Source: Saprospiraceae bacterium
GTDB taxonomy: Bacteria > Bacteroidota > Bacteroidia > Chitinophagales > Saprospiraceae
Length of the DNA stretch: 38,561 nt
Direction: 5' to 3'
NCBI GenBank assembly: GCA_013002995.1
Contig: JABDLO010000454.1
Span: forward strand, 1 to 38,561
The position numbers were made by a program, and so were the translations under genes. Positions 503-9,640 of this stretch are shown here, piece by piece. Within the stretch, counting starts at the first letter, position 1; each line of letters opens with the position of its first letter. The notes beneath the pieces are model-generated. The model had not been told where the DNA came from and searched no databases. It saw nothing but the letters and a program-made list of their open reading frames with translations.

Positions 503-1273
503 TCATCTTTCAAGCAGTTTCTTGAATGAATCCTCCATATTTCTGGCAGCTTTGTAACCGACTTCAAATGCAAATTTTCTTTTCTTCATATCAAAGATTC
601 CGATATCAGCCAATTCTGGTGGAGAGAGATAAAGGCTACATATTTTGGACTTCTTCCTGGTCTGGGCATTCATCATGACATTGAAAGATCGTTCAACAAG
701 CGAAAAGCTATTGGTTAGGGATTTCTTATCAATATCGGCTACAAAATTGAGATTAACACCGATGATGTGGTCTACTTCCAGCGGTATGTTTTCAACAGGG
801 AAATTATTGACAATCCCTCCATCAGCATACCAGGCATCTTCTATTTCAATAGGAGAGAAGACCATAGGAAAGCACGCCGATGCAAGCACCGGTTTAATTA
901 ACTCACCTTTAGAAAATATTCTTTCATTAGATGTAAAAAGATTGGTTGCAGTTACATAAAATTTCCTCTTCAAGGATTCGAAGGAATTATGACCGATTAA
1001 ATCAACCAATTCTGTCTCATATTTCATGAGGTCTAGAAAACCCGGCTTACCGAAGCTATAGTTTTTAATGGTCAGGATGGTAGTTCTCAGGAAGTATTCC
1101 AGGATTTCATCTGCATTCATTCCTGAAGCATACATAACACCAACCAGAGCACCAGAACTCGTGCCTGAAACATGGGTAATATTCAAGCCTATCTCTTCTA
1201 TGTATTTTATAACACCGATGTGTGCAAGACCCTTCACACCACCTCCAGATAATACTAAAGCAATATTGGACAT
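503..1273 (-). CDS. Patatin-like phospholipase (RssA/YlaK type)
   Basis: A 256-aa single-domain patatin. The glycine-rich oxyanion motif GGGVKG is at residues 10-15, the nucleophile elbow GTSSG at 37-41 (Ser39) and the DGG motif at 150-152 (Asp150), which together give the Ser-Asp dyad of patatin lipases. It has no signal peptide, so it is probably cytosolic and acts on membrane lipids or acyl esters. The length fits the short bacterial RssA group rather than the long outer-membrane PlpD/BamA-fused group. The start ATG at 1273 places the glycine loop ten residues in, which is normal for the family. A 14-bp palindrome, ATGATTTCAATCAT (1283-1296), lies just upstream. The substrate is not deducible. 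Confidence 0.9.
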   Translation of the reverse strand: MSNIALVLSGGGVKGLAHIGVIKYIEEIGLNITHVSGTSSGALVGVMYASGMNADEILEYFLRTTILTIKNYSFGKPGFLDLMKYETELVDLIGHNSFESLKRKFYVTATNLFTSNERIFSKGELIKPVLASACFPMVFSPIEIEDAWYADGGIVNNFPVENIPLEVDHIIGVNLNFVADIDKKSLTNSFSLVERSFNVMMNAQTRKKSKICSLYLSPPELADIGIFDMKKRKFAFEVGYKAARNMEDSFKKLLER

Positions 1274-1462
1274 GTAATACCTATGATTTCAATCATTAAA
1301 AATTATGCCGGTCATCATTCTTAACACCTGGTGAACCGTTGTATTTTGAATGTTTTATATCCACATTTCAAAATTATCAAAAATTGGAATGATTCACTCA
1401 CTAGTCGTGCCTCATTTAACACGAAGTGACAAATTAATATTTCATCTTTAAAGAGAGAACAA

Positions 1463-1828
1463 ATGAAAATATCAAGAGAACTCAAATTAGAAAATATACA
1501 ACAACAGTTTCAATCTGTATTTCCTCATTTAAAGATTGAGTTTTATTCCCGACCTCATAAGACAGGTGAAGGGTCAGAAGTAAAAACACAAATCAGTAAT
1601 CTTAAAAAGGTAGGGCAGATCTGTGATTTGGATGAAGTTGAAATTCCATTAAACGGTGAAATGACTGTTAAAGAATTTGAATCCATCATGGAAGAAAATT
1701 TTGGCCTTCACGTCCAGGTCTTCAGAAAATCAGCAAATCTGTGGCTTCAAACAGCAGCTACTGACGGATGGACCCTGGATAAACAGGAAGGGAAAGGAGG
1801 CCGTTCTGAGAAGTTTGCAGAAAAATAG
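1463..1828 (+). CDS. Conserved hypothetical protein, 121 aa
   Basis: A small soluble protein with no signal peptide or membrane segment. It is mixed alpha/beta: an N-terminal helix (ISRELKLENIQQQF), beta strands around LKIEFYSRPHKTGEG, a middle acidic stretch, and a C-terminal strand-rich part containing VQVFRKSANLWLQT and DGWTLDKQEGKG. The tail is basic and glycine-rich. From memory I believe similar proteins occur in Bacteroidota near universal stress and oxygen-regulated genes, but I cannot name a domain. It converges on the REC-Crp regulator gene with only 8 bp between stop codons. The start follows an A/G-rich leader (AAAGAGAGAACAA), a plausible ribosome site. Function unknown; a role in the neighbouring redox/hypoxia module is a guess from position only. 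Confidence 0.75.
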   Translation: MKISRELKLENIQQQFQSVFPHLKIEFYSRPHKTGEGSEVKTQISNLKKVGQICDLDEVEIPLNGEMTVKEFESIMEENFGLHVQVFRKSANLWLQTAATDGWTLDKQEGKGGRSEKFAEK

Positions 1829-1836
1829 GAAAACGA

Positions 1837-2880
1837 CTATTGAGGCATATTTTTTAATGCTGCCTCATTCAATATATTGATTTCATTATCAATGATTTCA
1901 ATAATTCCTTCTGATTTAAAATCTGATATCGTCCTTATAACAGTTTCTTTGGCTGTCCCAGCAAGACTTGCAAGATCTTCTCTCAGTATGGCAAATGAAG
2001 GTTGTCCATTTTTATCAGCTAGTGTCAGTAAAGCATTGGCAACTTTTTTCCTTACGGAGCTATAAGCCAAATCCAATAATTGCTTTTCAGTATCAGCAGT
2101 TTTACTGGCCAACATCTTAATGAACTGGGCTGCGAAGTTACGATTGTTGAAAAGCAGCAAATTAAAATCCTCTTCAGGTATAAGCCTTATTGTAGAATCT
2201 TCAAGTGCGATAACAGTATCTTCATACTTTTCTTTCTTTAATAATGGAATATAACCGAAGAAGTCACCAGGAGAAAAAATATTGATGATCAACTCCTTTC
2301 CCCATTCATTAATGTAACATTGTTTTACTTTTCCTTCTGCAACAAAGAACAACCATTTGGGATGTTGACCATGCTCATAAATGATATCCTTCTTGTTGTA
2401 CTTTCTGTATTCCCTGTTCATTGACAGGTTTTCAAATTCCTTTTGTGCTTTCGCTTCATCAAAGAATTTTTGAAGTCCTGACTCAGTACGGTCAAATGCT
2501 CTCTTGATGCGTTCACTCTTCTTTAGTCTTATCTCAATTGCTTCAAGTAATTCAACATCATCAAATGGTTTCGTAATGTAATCATCTGCCCCAAGTCCCA
2601 TTCCTTTTCTGAAGTCTGTCTTCTCACTCTTTGCCGTAAGAAAAATAAAAGGGATATCACTGGTCTTTGGATTTTTATTCAGAATCTTTAATACACCAAA
2701 ACCATCCAATTCCGGCATCATTACATCACAAAGGATAAGATCCACATCTGAAGAAAGAGCAATTTCTACTCCTTTCTTGCCATTTGCGGCAGAAAAAACC
2801 TCATAATCAGAGAGTTCTAGTATTTCACATAGGTTTTCTCTAACCTCCGGATTGTCTTCAATTACCAGTAATTTTTTCAT
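1837..2880 (-). CDS. Response regulator: receiver domain fused to Crp/Fnr transcription factor
   Basis: A 347-aa protein. Residues 1-120 form a CheY-type receiver with acidic pocket Glu8/Asp9, phospho-acceptor Asp52 (ILCDVMMPELDG), Thr82 and Lys104. A helical linker (120-155) leads to a cyclic-nucleotide-binding-like beta-barrel (about 160-250; FSPGDFFGYIPLL at 202-214) and a Crp-type winged helix at about 270-335. The recognition helix GTAKETVIRTIS carries Glu312 and Arg316, the pair that Crp/Fnr proteins use to read the G and C of TTGA/TCAA-like half-sites. No cysteine cluster for an Fe-S centre is present, so it should not sense oxygen itself; phosphorylation by the adjacent kinase is the likely input. 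The ATG overlaps the kinase stop by 4 bp (ATGA), showing translational coupling. Domain logic equals FixJ receiver plus FixK output in one chain. Confidence 0.93.
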   Translation of the reverse strand: MKKLLVIEDNPEVRENLCEILELSDYEVFSAANGKKGVEIALSSDVDLILCDVMMPELDGFGVLKILNKNPKTSDIPFIFLTAKSEKTDFRKGMGLGADDYITKPFDDVELLEAIEIRLKKSERIKRAFDRTESGLQKFFDEAKAQKEFENLSMNREYRKYNKKDIIYEHGQHPKWLFFVAEGKVKQCYINEWGKELIINIFSPGDFFGYIPLLKKEKYEDTVIALEDSTIRLIPEEDFNLLLFNNRNFAAQFIKMLASKTADTEKQLLDLAYSSVRKKVANALLTLADKNGQPSFAILREDLASLAGTAKETVIRTISDFKSEGIIEIIDNEINILNEAALKNMPQ

Positions 2881-4145
2881 AGTTGTTTCGATCGGTACGG
2901 CAATTTTACGAAAAATGATGACCCTTCTCCAAATATACTGGTAAATCTTATTGAACCACCCAATATATCCACATATCTTTTAACGATGTTCAGTCCAAGA
3001 CCTGTTCCTTGAATATTGGTAACATTCCCAGCTCTGAAGAAACGCTCAAACATGTGTTTTTGATCTTCTAGAGGGATTCCAATACCCTTGTCTTTAATTT
3101 CTATTTCAAGTTCTTCTTCTAAAAATTTAATATTGCATTCAATAAGTCCTGATTCATAAGAATATTTTATTGAATTGGAAACAAGATTGAAAAGGATGTT
3201 TTTGATGATTCGTTCATCAGAAATCACAGGTCTCAATGTATTGATAAAATTGACGGTTATAGCTTGACCTGGTTTCATGATTCCTTCAACTTCTTGTTTA
3301 ATTAATTCAATCAATGATTCCAGATTTACTTTATCGTATTTTACATCAATCTTGCCTTCTTCCAATTTACTGATTGAAAGGAAGTCATTGAGAATGCCTG
3401 TGAGGTTGTTTACGGCAGACTTTATTCTCTCAACATGTTTTACTCTTTTCGGTTGATGATTATGTTCTTCATATCTGGATATAAGAGCGGCAGATGAAAG
3501 TATGGTTGCAAGTGGAGTTCTAAATTCATGAGAAGCCATAGAAACAAAGCGTGATTTCAACTCACCGAGTTCTTTTTCTTTTTCAAGACTGAGTTTTAGT
3601 TCTTCCTCCCTGATCATCAACTTGGCCTCAATTGATTTCCGCTCGTTGATTTCCTCTTCCAATTTGGTATTGGTGTCCAACAGTTTGTTAACAACATTTT
3701 CCAATTCATATGTTCTTTTGGAAACTTTGCTTTCCAGTTCCTCATTAAGGCGTAAGATCCTTTCTTCTGCAGCTTTAACGTCTGTCAGATCATGAATGAT
3801 ACCTGTAAAGATGATGCGATCATTTAGAATTACTTCACTTACTGCAAGCCTGAAAGGGAATACACTTCCATCGGCTCTTTCTCCCAGCACTTCTCTTCCT
3901 ATACCTATAATCCGTGGTATTTTAGTACTCAGATACCTGGACATATATCCATCATGACTTGATTTATATGGTTCTGGCATCAGTACATTGATCTTCTTTC
4001 CAACTATGTCAGATTCTGCATAACCAAACATTTGAATAGCTGCCTGGTTAACAGTTTCGATAACACCATGGACGTCAATAGTGATGATTCCATCTATAGC
4101 AGTATCAATAATTGCTTGAATCCTTAAGGCAAAATCATTGCTCAT
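2877..4145 (-). CDS. FixL-like heme-PAS sensor histidine kinase
   Basis: A soluble 422-aa kinase with no transmembrane segment. Residues 5-125 form a PAS domain very close to the heme-binding PAS of rhizobial FixL. His64 in HDGYMSRY aligns with the proximal heme ligand (His200 of Bradyrhizobium FixL), Arg70 with Arg206, and Arg84 in RIIGIGR with the distal Arg220; only the His214 position is changed (Arg78). A coiled coil follows at about 125-195. The HisKA H-box ASHEFRTPL has His206. The HATPase part shows the N-box (NILFNLVSNSIKYS, 316-329), DKGIGIP (352-358) and GTGLGLNIV (380-388). Family knowledge predicts that oxygen binding to the heme inhibits the kinase, so signalling would occur at low oxygen. 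It is co-transcribed with the REC-Crp regulator. Heme binding is inferred from residues only. Confidence 0.9.
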   Translation of the reverse strand: MSNDFALRIQAIIDTAIDGIITIDVHGVIETVNQAAIQMFGYAESDIVGKKINVLMPEPYKSSHDGYMSRYLSTKIPRIIGIGREVLGERADGSVFPFRLAVSEVILNDRIIFTGIIHDLTDVKAAEERILRLNEELESKVSKRTYELENVVNKLLDTNTKLEEEINERKSIEAKLMIREEELKLSLEKEKELGELKSRFVSMASHEFRTPLATILSSAALISRYEEHNHQPKRVKHVERIKSAVNNLTGILNDFLSISKLEEGKIDVKYDKVNLESLIELIKQEVEGIMKPGQAITVNFINTLRPVISDERIIKNILFNLVSNSIKYSYESGLIECNIKFLEEELEIEIKDKGIGIPLEDQKHMFERFFRAGNVTNIQGTGLGLNIVKRYVDILGGSIRFTSIFGEGSSFFVKLPYRSKQL

Positions 4146-4162: not shown

Positions 4163-4171
4163 CAAAGGCTA
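4163..4171 (-). promoter_or_regulatory. Possible -7 element for the FixL-like kinase operon
   Basis: On the minus strand this reads TAGCCTTTG, one base longer than the Bacteroidota TAnnTTTG element. It would put a start site near 4160 and the centre of the FNR-type palindrome at about -42, the class II activator position. Weak alone; listed because the geometry fits. Confidence 0.3.
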
Positions 4172-4194: not shown

Positions 4195-4210
4195 GTTGAT
4201 GAAGGTCAAC
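4195..4210. promoter_or_regulatory. FNR/FixK-type operator palindrome
   Basis: The 16-mer GTTGATGAAGGTCAAC is an inverted repeat with half-sites GTTGAT and GTTGAC around a 4-bp spacer. It differs from the FNR/FixK consensus TTGAT-N4-ATCAA at one base. It lies in the 130-bp divergent region between the FixL-like kinase operon and the CBS/USP operon, about 57 bp from the kinase start and 66 bp from the preferred CBS start. The obvious candidate binder is the Crp-type regulator encoded at 1837-2880. The palindrome is seen directly; binding is inference. Confidence 0.65.
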
Positions 4211-4234
4211 AGATTAATTGATTCAGATCATAAA

Positions 4235-4242: not shown

Positions 4243-4275
4243 CATGTTTCTATGATCTTGTGTAAAAGTATAGTT

Positions 4276-4719
4276 ATGAACTTGTTAGAATCTGTATCAA
4301 CCATCATGACCAACAACCCTGTAAGGCTATCGCCTTATGATCCATTGGTCAAAGTAAAATCGATTTTTGAAAAAATGAATATCCACCATATTCCTGTAGT
4401 AGACGAAGGGAAATTGGTGGGTATAGTGAGTAAAGCTGACTTCCTTTTCTTTAAAAGAGGCTTTAATAATACCAATGTCATACAGAAAATGGAGGAAATC
4501 AGACTTAATAATTATGTAGTAAAAGACATTATGACTTCAGGTCTGGCTAAATTGGAGCCGGACGATAAAATAAACGTTGCTTTAGAAATATTTAAGAAAA
4601 ATATATTTCATGCTATTCCTGTAGTTAAGGATGGTCGGCTTGTGGGAATATTAACCACCCACGATATCATAAACAGGCTCGCGGACGATAAATCTGCTGT
4701 GTCTGAGTATAAATTATAA
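4276..4719 (+). CDS. Tandem CBS-domain protein
   Basis: A 147-aa protein made almost wholly of a CBS pair (Bateman module). The first CBS covers about residues 3-65, with MTNNPVRLSP, HHIPVVDEGKLVGIVSKADF. The second covers about 80-140, with VKDIMTSGLAKLEPDD and HAIPVVKDGRLVGILTTHDI. Such modules bind adenine nucleotides or related ligands and act as energy sensors. I chose ATG 4276 because the CBS fold begins straight after it; an in-frame ATG at 4252 would add eight residues (MILCKSIV) and would be nearly leaderless if the proposed promoter is right. It is the first gene of a two-gene unit with the USP fusion, 8 bp apart, and is divergent from the FixL-like system behind an FNR-type box. 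This suggests low-oxygen or redox-controlled expression. Confidence 0.9.
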   Translation: MNLLESVSTIMTNNPVRLSPYDPLVKVKSIFEKMNIHHIPVVDEGKLVGIVSKADFLFFKRGFNNTNVIQKMEEIRLNNYVVKDIMTSGLAKLEPDDKINVALEIFKKNIFHAIPVVKDGRLVGILTTHDIINRLADDKSAVSEYKL

Positions 4720-4727
4720 TACTTGTA

Positions 4728-5816
4728 ATGGACATAACAATTTATGGCACTGGTACTTCAGGTACAGAACTGATCAAGTCTGTATTGGACACTTTCTTGA
4801 ACCAGGCCGGGATCGACTTCAATATGAAGGAAGTCAATGATGTGAATGAATTTATGGAGAAGAAGATTCAATCAGTACCTGCTGTAATGGTTGATGACAG
4901 TGAGTTGTATGTGCTGAAGCAGAATGGTAAATTTACTGAGTCTTTAAGAAACCTGATTCAGTCCATATTAAAGAAAAAGGATTATGGTACAATGAATAAA
5001 ATCATTGTACCTACCGATTTTTCAGATACATCTATGAATGCCTTTTCTTTTGCCAATCGATATGCAAAAGACGTCTCTGGTATGATTAAAGTGGTTCATG
5101 TATATTACCCCTCATCAGCTGATATTAACGGAAATGTTTTTGTTGATGTGGGGCTAAAGAATGTAAAACAAGCCTTATTAGATGACTTCGTTAAATCTGT
5201 AAATCAAGACTGGATTGGAGAAGTTATGTCCACTTCATTGATTGACAAGACCTTTGCCGAAGGGTTTCCAGTTCCATCTATTGTTGAAGTCGCAGAAAAA
5301 AATAATGCATCCTGCATCATCATTGGCACTACTGGTGAAGGAGAGACATTCAAGAAAATCTTTGGCTCTGTATCTACAGAATTAGTAAAGAAATCTACTG
5401 TTCCCGTTATAGTTGTACCCCCTGAAGCCGTTTACAAGGGTTTTAAAAAAATCCTGTATGCCAGCCAGGATGCAGACTTGGATAAAAGATGTATGGATAG
5501 ACTTTGTTCATTCAGCCAGATACATGAAGCTGAACTTCACATCGTCCATGTCGCTAAATCAGATGTCGATTCAAGTAATTTTTCCGGCTCTGAAATAGAA
5601 TCATATTGTGACCAGGTTGAAATTAAAGTTTCACTAGTCGTAAATGATGATGTAGAAGAAGGACTACATCAATACGCAGATGATAAAAACATAGACTTAA
5701 TCGTGCTTTCAAGTAAGCGACGATCATTTATTGAAAATATATTTCATAGCAGTGTAAGTAAAAGAATGGCCATGCATACGCATATTCCAATTATGGTATT
5801 GCATGATAATGGCTAA
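4728..5816 (+). CDS. Thioredoxin-like domain fused to two universal stress protein domains
   Basis: A 362-aa soluble protein in three parts. Residues 1-85 look like a small thioredoxin fold (ITIYGTGTSGTELIKSVL, then cis-Pro-like SVPAVMVDD with Pro51), but the usual CxxC position reads GTSG, so it lacks redox cysteines. Residues 89-232 form a USP domain with an intact ATP-binding motif G-2x-G-9x-G-S (Gly200, Gly203, Gly213). Residues about 238-362 form a second USP domain with a degenerate motif (SSKRRSFIENIFHSS), probably not ATP-binding. Tandem USPs act in survival under stress, starvation and hypoxia. An internal ATG exists at the start of the first USP domain (residue 89), so a shorter product is conceivable, but the upstream frame is clearly protein-like. 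An intrinsic terminator follows at 5846. Confidence 0.88.
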   Translation: MDITIYGTGTSGTELIKSVLDTFLNQAGIDFNMKEVNDVNEFMEKKIQSVPAVMVDDSELYVLKQNGKFTESLRNLIQSILKKKDYGTMNKIIVPTDFSDTSMNAFSFANRYAKDVSGMIKVVHVYYPSSADINGNVFVDVGLKNVKQALLDDFVKSVNQDWIGEVMSTSLIDKTFAEGFPVPSIVEVAEKNNASCIIIGTTGEGETFKKIFGSVSTELVKKSTVPVIVVPPEAVYKGFKKILYASQDADLDKRCMDRLCSFSQIHEAELHIVHVAKSDVDSSNFSGSEIESYCDQVEIKVSLVVNDDVEEGLHQYADDKNIDLIVLSSKRRSFIENIFHSSVSKRMAMHTHIPIMVLHDNG

Positions 5817-8211: not shown

Positions 8212-8862
8212 TTATTCAACAATCCCGTGTCTGAATGCCCAGGCTACAAGTGCTGGTGTATTTTTCGTGTTGGTTTTATCTAAGAGTCGTTGTTTATGGC
8301 CTTCTATGGTTCTTCGAGATCTGAAAATCTTATCGGCGATTTCCTGTGAAGTCAACCCCTGGCATATTAATTCAAGGATCTCCTGTTCAATATCTGTCAG
8401 TGCTTCATTGAGTTTAATGTTTCTTTTCTTTTTTCCTTCATCGGTTGTTAGTCCATGAATCAAGACCTTTGATAATTTGTCATTTACGTAGAAACCGAGA
8501 TCCATCACTTTATTAATTGCAGTATTTAACTCATCAGCATCAATGTCTTTTAATATATAACCATTGGCCCCTTTCTTCATAGCTTGTACAACGAATGGTA
8601 TATCATCATGCATAGATATCACAAGTACCTTTAAATCCTTGTATGTCGGTTTTAGTTTTTCAAGTGCTTCCAATCCTCCCATCACCGGCATCTTAAGGTC
8701 AAGTAGAATCAACTCTACATCTTCTTTTTCTGATAATTTATTGAGTAATTCCTGTCCATTTCCTGCCTGGAATATAACCTGGCAGTCATTAAAAGAATTT
8801 ACAAGTCTTGTAAGTCCGGCTCTGAATAATGTATGATCGTCTACTATTCCGATTTTAATCAT
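8212..8862 (-). CDS. NarL/LuxR-type response regulator
   Basis: A 216-aa regulator. The receiver covers residues 1-120, with acidic Asp8/Asp9 (IVDDH), phospho-acceptor Asp55 (LILLDLKMP) and Lys105 (ILKD). The LuxR-type helix-turn-helix is at about 150-205 (LTDIEQEILELICQGLTSQEIADK, recognition helix around SRRTIEGHKQRLLDK). It overlaps the kinase gene by 8 bp and is the last gene of a four-gene operon, so it is clearly the cognate partner of that kinase. It converges on the CAT-like gene with 13 bp between stops. Target genes are unknown. Confidence 0.93.
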   Translation of the reverse strand: MIKIGIVDDHTLFRAGLTRLVNSFNDCQVIFQAGNGQELLNKLSEKEDVELILLDLKMPVMGGLEALEKLKPTYKDLKVLVISMHDDIPFVVQAMKKGANGYILKDIDADELNTAINKVMDLGFYVNDKLSKVLIHGLTTDEGKKKRNIKLNEALTDIEQEILELICQGLTSQEIADKIFRSRRTIEGHKQRLLDKTNTKNTPALVAWAFRHGIVE

Positions 8863-9640
8863 GATTTGATGGCTTTAACTCATTGATGATCAATTTGGCG
8901 CCATTCCCTATACTGCTTTTAATTGTCAACTCTGCTCCCATTGATTTACATCTCGCTTCAATATTTCTCAACCCTAGACCCTTTGGTTGATCAGAGGCGT
9001 CAAATCCTGATCCATTGTCTGTAATAGTGATTTCGTAATCTGATTGAATGGTATACATTTTTATTTCAATGAAACTTGCTGATCCATGCCTCACAGCATT
9101 ATTAATCGATTCCTGAATGATTCTATAGATAGAAAGAGTTTCCTCAATCTGCAATTGAAAGGACTCAGGAATAGAGATGGCAATTGATATATCCTCATTT
9201 TTTTCAAATCTCCTTTTAAGTTCTTCAAGAGCAGATTTTAGTCCAAATTGGTGCAGGACATTAGGAACCAGATCTCGACTGAAATCCCTGACCTGTTCAA
9301 TATTGTCGTCAAGTGCAACCAGGATGGCTTCTACTTCTTCTTTTTCATCTCCTTCCTTGTGTCTCAATTCATTTTTAAAGTACATTTTAAATGATGAAAG
9401 GAGGGGCCCAATATCATCATGCAGGTTGGCGCCAATTCTCTCTCGTTCATTTTCTTGGGTTGTTAAAGTAGCTTTCAAGAGCTCGGCTTCATTTTTCTTT
9501 CTCATCTGCTGCACCTGCTCATGATATAATCTCTGTCTTTTAGCATAAACGAAGATCAGGTATATCAATGCTGATGCCAGTAAGAAGAATACTGTGGAAG
9601 ATATATATGCAATGGTTTTTATGACGTTTTCATCAACCAT
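8855..9640 (-). CDS. Histidine kinase, DesK/NarX (HisKA_3) type
   Basis: A 261-aa kinase with one transmembrane helix (about residues 9-33), no sizeable periplasmic domain, a coiled coil (38-68), the HisKA_3 H-box ANLHDDIGP with His74, and a HATPase domain with the N-box ESINNAVRHG (178-186), DNGSGF (208-213) and GLGLRN (221-226). Lacking an input domain, it probably takes its signal from the membrane or from a partner; the multi-pass protein encoded directly upstream is the obvious candidate. Start and stop are coupled by the TAATG overlap at 9638-9642. The response regulator follows with an 8-bp overlap. Confidence 0.92.
   Translation of the reverse strand: MVDENVIKTIAYISSTVFFLLASALIYLIFVYAKRQRLYHEQVQQMRKKNEAELLKATLTTQENERERIGANLHDDIGPLLSSFKMYFKNELRHKEGDEKEEVEAILVALDDNIEQVRDFSRDLVPNVLHQFGLKSALEELKRRFEKNEDISIAISIPESFQLQIEETLSIYRIIQESINNAVRHGSASFIEIKMYTIQSDYEITITDNGSGFDASDQPKGLGLRNIEARCKSMGAELTIKSSIGNGAKLIINELKPSNHD

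Follow-up and report, generated by a model that had tools for sequence, protein, structure and literature searches.

The window, a stretch of 38,561 nucleotides on contig JABDLO010000454.1 of a Saprospiraceae genome, carries a two-component gene pair on its minus strand. A sensor histidine kinase and a response regulator that joins a receiver to a Crp/Fnr module (REC-CRP) overlap by ATGA, and both open reading frames were confirmed where the first-pass annotation had placed them (Table 1). In the full 422 aa of the kinase, the domain search detected no domain besides PAS, HisKA and HATPase. The fusion protein beside the CBS gene comprises a Thioredoxin_3 fold without CxxC and two Usp domains, and similar fusions adjoin the pair in Saprospiraceae relatives (L083, L081 and L237-L239). 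The small protein at 1463-1828 matched no Pfam or NCBIfam family. A second two-component pair lies a few kb off at 8212-9640 and was read by eye as a LuxR-type regulator with a NarX-like kinase.

Table 1. Genes, domains and candidate operators at the kinase/REC-CRP locus (window positions)
Feature	Position	Strand	Basis
FixL-type PAS sensor histidine kinase, 422 aa	2877..4145	-	Domain search, FixL sequence match
Heme-PAS-like domain, aa 8-121; H64 codon 3954-3956, R84 codon 3894-3896	3783..4124	-	Domain search, alignment, structural overlay
HisKA dimerisation/phosphoacceptor domain, aa 197-264; H206 codon 3528-3530	3354..3557	-	Sequence SHEFRTP
HATPase_c catalytic domain of the kinase, aa 310-418	2892..3218	-	Domain search
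REC-CRP/FNR response regulator, 347 aa, ATGA overlap with kinase	1837..2880	-	Domain search, orthologs
Regulator receiver domain (Response_reg), aa 5-116; D52 codon 2725-2727	2533..2868	-	
Regulator cNMP-binding-fold domain (cNMP_binding), aa 159-245, without cAMP-pocket Arg-Ser	2146..2406	-	
Regulator Crp-type HTH (HTH_Crp_2), aa 279-344; E312 codon 1945-1947, R316 codon 1933-1935	1849..2046	-	
Candidate tandem operator TGATGAAGGTCA-N10-TGATTCAGATCA, divergent region between kinase and CBS genes	4197..4230	.	
Candidate single perfect operator ATGATTTCAATCAT, between patatin-like gene and small ORF	1283..1296	.	
CBS-domain protein (two CBS), divergent, sharing the tandem operator with the kinase side; neighbour kept in relatives	4252..4719	+	
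Thioredoxin-fold and tandem universal stress protein fusion, conserved neighbour	4728..5816	+	
Small conserved protein, neighbour in 13/78 loci, operator upstream in 9/13	1463..1828	+	
Patatin-like gene	503..1273	-	

FixL-like PAS domain of the kinase

The kinase PAS domain showed 43-47% identity to the heme domains of rhizobial FixL. Alignment with FixL structures, a check suggested in the first-pass annotation, was ungapped for both Bradyrhizobium FixL 1dp6 (E 1e-31) and Sinorhizobium FixL 1d06 (E 2e-31). An AlphaFold model of the domain (pLDDT 89.6) was superposed on O2-bound BjFixL 1dp6 with Z 19.8 and 1.3 Å over 116 residues, also without gaps, model residues 18-133 corresponding to chain residues 154-269. 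The other heme PAS domains FG214 and DosP scored approximately 3 Z units below BjFixL. Because the overlay is ungapped, H64, R70 and R84 correspond to H200, R206 and R220 of BjFixL. The FixL hallmark, a proximal His200 and a distal Arg220, is present as H64 and R84, and the histidine and two arginines first read from the letters fell on their FixL counterparts. Against the NCBIfam rhizobial FixL equivalog NF041777 the kinase reached 152 bits, missing the cut-off of 850. By its sequence, it is FixL-like and stands outside the rhizobial equivalog.

Among 61 paired kinases with the same PAS, His64 was present in 58, Arg84 in 35 and Arg70, the most variable of the elements described, in nine; His64 was also frequent in other PAS domains of the loci (18/22). 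The canonical FixL form IIGIGRE was found mainly in Saprospiraceae kinases. A second form, RxMGxGxDL, matched the heme domains of DosP and FixL. In L113, L122, L131 and other loci this form keeps H64 and has Met, Leu, Phe or Arg as its distal residue, so that selectivity for gases or redox state may vary. The heme-PAS fold is shared with E. coli DosP and further heme-PAS sensors, whose output domains are different; the distal ligand of DosP is Met. The paired kinases of Pontibacter and Adhaeribacter gave no match to this PAS.

A genuine heme-PAS kinase might instead sense NO, CO or heme redox, with the regulator still driving a respiratory regulon. Many paired kinases of other families carry M, L, F, I or V at the R84 position, and their PAS fits DosP as well as FixL. 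The PAS of the source kinase, however, has the full FixL set with O2-bound FixL as its best match, and the predicted targets are micro-oxic cbb3 genes. A ligand other than O2 was therefore considered unlikely for this kinase, and oxygen is the preferred signal.

Architecture of the REC-CRP regulator

The regulator consists of a receiver, a cNMP fold and a Crp-type HTH. Its receiver has a complete catalytic set with the acidic pair E8/D9, D52, T82 and K104. D52, K104, E312 and R316 were invariant in 27 orthologs, and D9 and T/S82 were also conserved. The only cysteines are C18 and C51 in the receiver and C188, so the regulator lacks an FNR-type 4Fe-4S cluster. The initial description of Asp52, of Glu312/Arg316 in the recognition helix and of missing Fe-S cysteines thus agreed with the ortholog set. 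The E..R recognition helix is common to REC-CRP and FNR (GTAKETVIRTISDFK versus GTATETTIRLLSEFK). FNR-type traits of the regulator are this invariant helix and, by sequence statistics, a TGA-N6-TCA operator. Fold searches with full-length REC-CRP matched receiver domains only, leaving the Crp half uncovered, and the full-length model (pTM 0.39) does not reliably position one half against the other.

The PF00027 match and its cyclic-nucleotide label would fit a cAMP-type CRP with an added receiver. The phosphate-binding cassette, however, reads FFGYIPLLKKEKYEDTVIAL without Arg-Ser, which was conserved in none of the 27 orthologs. With the cAMP pocket residues missing, cAMP control was rejected, and a cAMP-type CRP is very improbable.

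Conservation, cbb3 neighbourhood and operator

Regulator orthologs were collected from 120 genomes of the order as full-length matches at E<=1e-60. They were present in 62 genomes, or 63 including G239, a true ortholog with 37% identity that was skipped by the cut-off and placed in the REC-CRP group for later tests. Most sampled genomes of the class held an ortholog; none was seen in the genomes sampled from the remaining classes of the phylum. Among the 80 named loci are those of Saprospiraceae, Chitinophagaceae, Hymenobacter, Spirosoma, Pontibacter, Dyadobacter and Reichenbachiella. The kinase was located immediately upstream of the regulator in 69 of 78 named loci and 43 of 48 others; some of the closest relatives have the two genes kilobases apart. 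The pair is a conserved class-wide family, not a special feature of the source genome. Recurrent neighbours were the ccoNO fusion, ccoP, ccoG, FixH-like (ccoH-like) and FixI-like (ccoI-like) genes as well as a TauE/SafE-like gene, hemN, Usp, CBS and Hsp20. The ccoN, ccoG and hemN neighbours exceeded NCBIfam cut-offs. The survey of Bacteroidota proposed at the outset accordingly found a widespread pair with cbb3-related neighbours.

When the intergenic DNA of 78 loci was searched for spaced palindromes in an unsupervised scan, ATGAT-N4-ATCAT (21 versus 0.55 expected) and ATGAC-N4-GTCAT (15 versus 0.22 expected) were the top results. The relaxed form TGAY-N4-RTCA occurred 249 times between genes, compared with 7-33 times for other spacings, and coding DNA of the loci showed no excess of TGAY/RTCA pairs at N4. 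A site was located upstream of 55% of paired kinase genes versus 15% of other genes. Two sites lay no more than 80 bp apart in 55 cases, and in 43 of these the spacing was 22-23 bp, corresponding to two helical turns and suggesting two dimers side by side. The rhizobial FixK box is TTGAT-N4-ATCAA (PMC7888657). Its form TTGAY-N4-RTCAA was rejected as the family consensus, TTGA-N6-TCAA being unenriched in the 78 loci. Whole-genome counts of single ATGAYN4RTCAT sites in the 120 genomes could not be related to the regulator because the coding background was too noisy, and the tandem form was therefore used. The reversed control of the tandem pattern had 0 matches in all 120 genomes. Nine tandem sites were counted in the source genome, some of them preceding the kinase/REC-CRP operon, ccoNO, cytochrome genes and the gene of a ccoI-like ATPase. 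A TAGCCTTTG box at 4163-4171, picked out by eye on the kinase side, deviates from the TAnnTTTG consensus; with this box, a putative transcription start would lie ~41-45 bp downstream of the near operator.

Proposed exchange with Fe-S FNR and a putative oxygen switch

Several genomes of the order with tandem sites and without REC-CRP carried an FNR with N-terminal cysteines (4-Cys) beside the cbb3 operon. In these FNR-carrying relatives without the pair, the same operator occupied the same place at cbb3. Among 40 FNRs, the cysteine cluster was retained in most and absent in a few. The 71 genomes with cbb3 comprised 39 with REC-CRP only, 21 with FNR only, seven with both and four with neither, a near mutual exclusion with a Fisher p of 1.5e-8 that is uncorrected for shared ancestry. 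Ten genomes carried both regulators, and seven sampled families included REC-CRP-only as well as FNR-only genomes. The tandem operator was present in 64 of the 93 genomes that carry at least one of the regulators versus 3 of the 27 with neither, likewise uncorrected for shared ancestry. A site upstream of ccoNO was found in 29/38 REC-CRP-only, 16/19 FNR-only, 7/7 double and 1/4 regulator-free genomes. These sites mostly lay at -220 to -300 from the start codon, alike in the REC-CRP-only and FNR-only groups.

The idea of an operator specific to REC-CRP was dropped because REC-CRP-negative genomes with FNR had the same sites; the operator cannot separate the two regulators. Another Crp/Fnr protein could bind TGAY-N4-RTCA, the REC-CRP pair only lying nearby. 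FNR genomes without REC-CRP use the same operator, and the source genome has further Crp/Fnr paralogs, two of which (L003 and L009) have E..R helices and may also bind TGA sites. On the other hand, no close FNR was detected in the source genome at E<=1e-30, REC-CRP has the FNR recognition helix, operators are rare where both regulators are absent, and likely autoregulatory sites precede the pair. Binding by another protein was rated quite unlikely, and REC-CRP is the favoured candidate to bind the operator.

The tree built from Crp/Fnr modules united REC-CRP in a single clade (support 100/99) nested among FNRs and adjoining a Bacteroidota FNR group (94/88). Some deeper support was moderate in this tree, E. 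coli rows formed long branches and FixK was left out. Most simply, a single fusion would have put a receiver where a Bacteroidota FNR had its N-terminal Fe-S segment. The existing FNR regulon would therefore have passed to the heme kinase. It is fairly probable that this replacement happened once in Bacteroidota and that the phosphorylatable FNR repeatedly displaced Fe-S FNR in different families. The often-tandem operators and the cbb3 regulon would have been kept and sensing moved from the Fe-S cluster to the heme kinase, with no rewiring of promoters.

A two-component oxygen switch is the likely function of the pair, with a heme-PAS kinase phosphorylating REC-CRP to control a TGAY-N4-RTCA/cbb3 regulon inherited from FNR. 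We infer heme binding, O2 control, phosphotransfer, DNA binding and the direction of regulation as follows. The kinase PAS would bind heme via H64, and bound O2, sensed via R84, would hold the kinase off. In FixL, O2 on the heme switches the kinase off. A drop in O2 would allow autophosphorylation at H206, from which the phosphate would pass to residue D52 in the receiver. Phosphorylation of D52 may favour a REC-CRP dimer or tandem binding. The phosphorylated dimer would occupy TGAY-N4-RTCA, often as two dimers side by side at 22-23 bp, and activate its own operon, the cbb3 oxidase, assembly genes, hemN, Usp/CBS and cytochrome genes.

The first-pass annotation had described the FixJ and FixK steps as collapsed into one low-oxygen switch protein. 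Neighbourhood (cbb3/hemN/Usp), operator and FNR exclusion support its core, the idea that a FixL-type kinase directly targets a Crp/Fnr-type factor. A receiver added to FNR is a better account than a merger of FixJ and FixK because the Crp/Fnr half groups with Bacteroidota FNRs in the tree without FixK. The system resembles FixL-FixJ-FixK of rhizobia in its FixL-type heme-PAS kinase, cbb3 oxidase output and TGA-N6-TCA operator type. Rhizobia, however, have a separate FixJ, a receiver with a LuxR-type HTH, and FixK, a stand-alone Crp/Fnr protein without an Fe-S cluster; here one protein has a Crp HTH and an N-terminal receiver. The hFixL-FxkR-FixK system of Rhizobium likewise combines FixL-type sensing with an alternative response regulator, but FxkR still works through induction of a separate fixK (PMC7888657). 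FNR/FnrN, a direct 4Fe-4S oxygen sensor, shares the core, the E..R recognition helix and the operator and adjoins the same cbb3 genes in relatives, whereas REC-CRP has a receiver where the N-terminal Fe-S cysteines were and sensing would have moved to the kinase.

No account of a receiver-Crp/Fnr oxygen regulator from Bacteroidota turned up in text searches covering part of the literature. New here are the cbb3/hemN/Usp/CBS neighbours, the tandem operator, the FNR with the same operator, the near exclusion and the single REC-CRP clade. Induction of the high-affinity cbb3 oxidase in Bacteroidota is poorly known, and a candidate sensor, transcription factor and operator can now be named for many genera. 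A study of F. psychrophilum found strong induction of cbb3 when oxygen was limiting; its main text contains none of the terms fnr, crp and response regulator (PMC9723704). If correct, the proposed switch would be a clean natural case of a regulon that changed its sensor and kept its DNA sites, and would make a phosphorylation-controlled FNR core available for mechanistic work.

The source genome also encodes another cysteine-rich FNR-like protein (L007, G000:C510; CEGTSFCDSCQHSKNPC). Its recognition helix NISNAIRNL lacks E, so it probably uses another operator. In genome G149 (L280), FNR, cbb3 and the REC-CRP pair are located on one contig, and the 14 tandem operators of this genome are the maximum of the sample. 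A similar, putatively MiaE-like gene lies near the cbb3 operon or FNR at L230 5939-6523 and L232 5767-6420, one being a REC-CRP and one an FNR genome.
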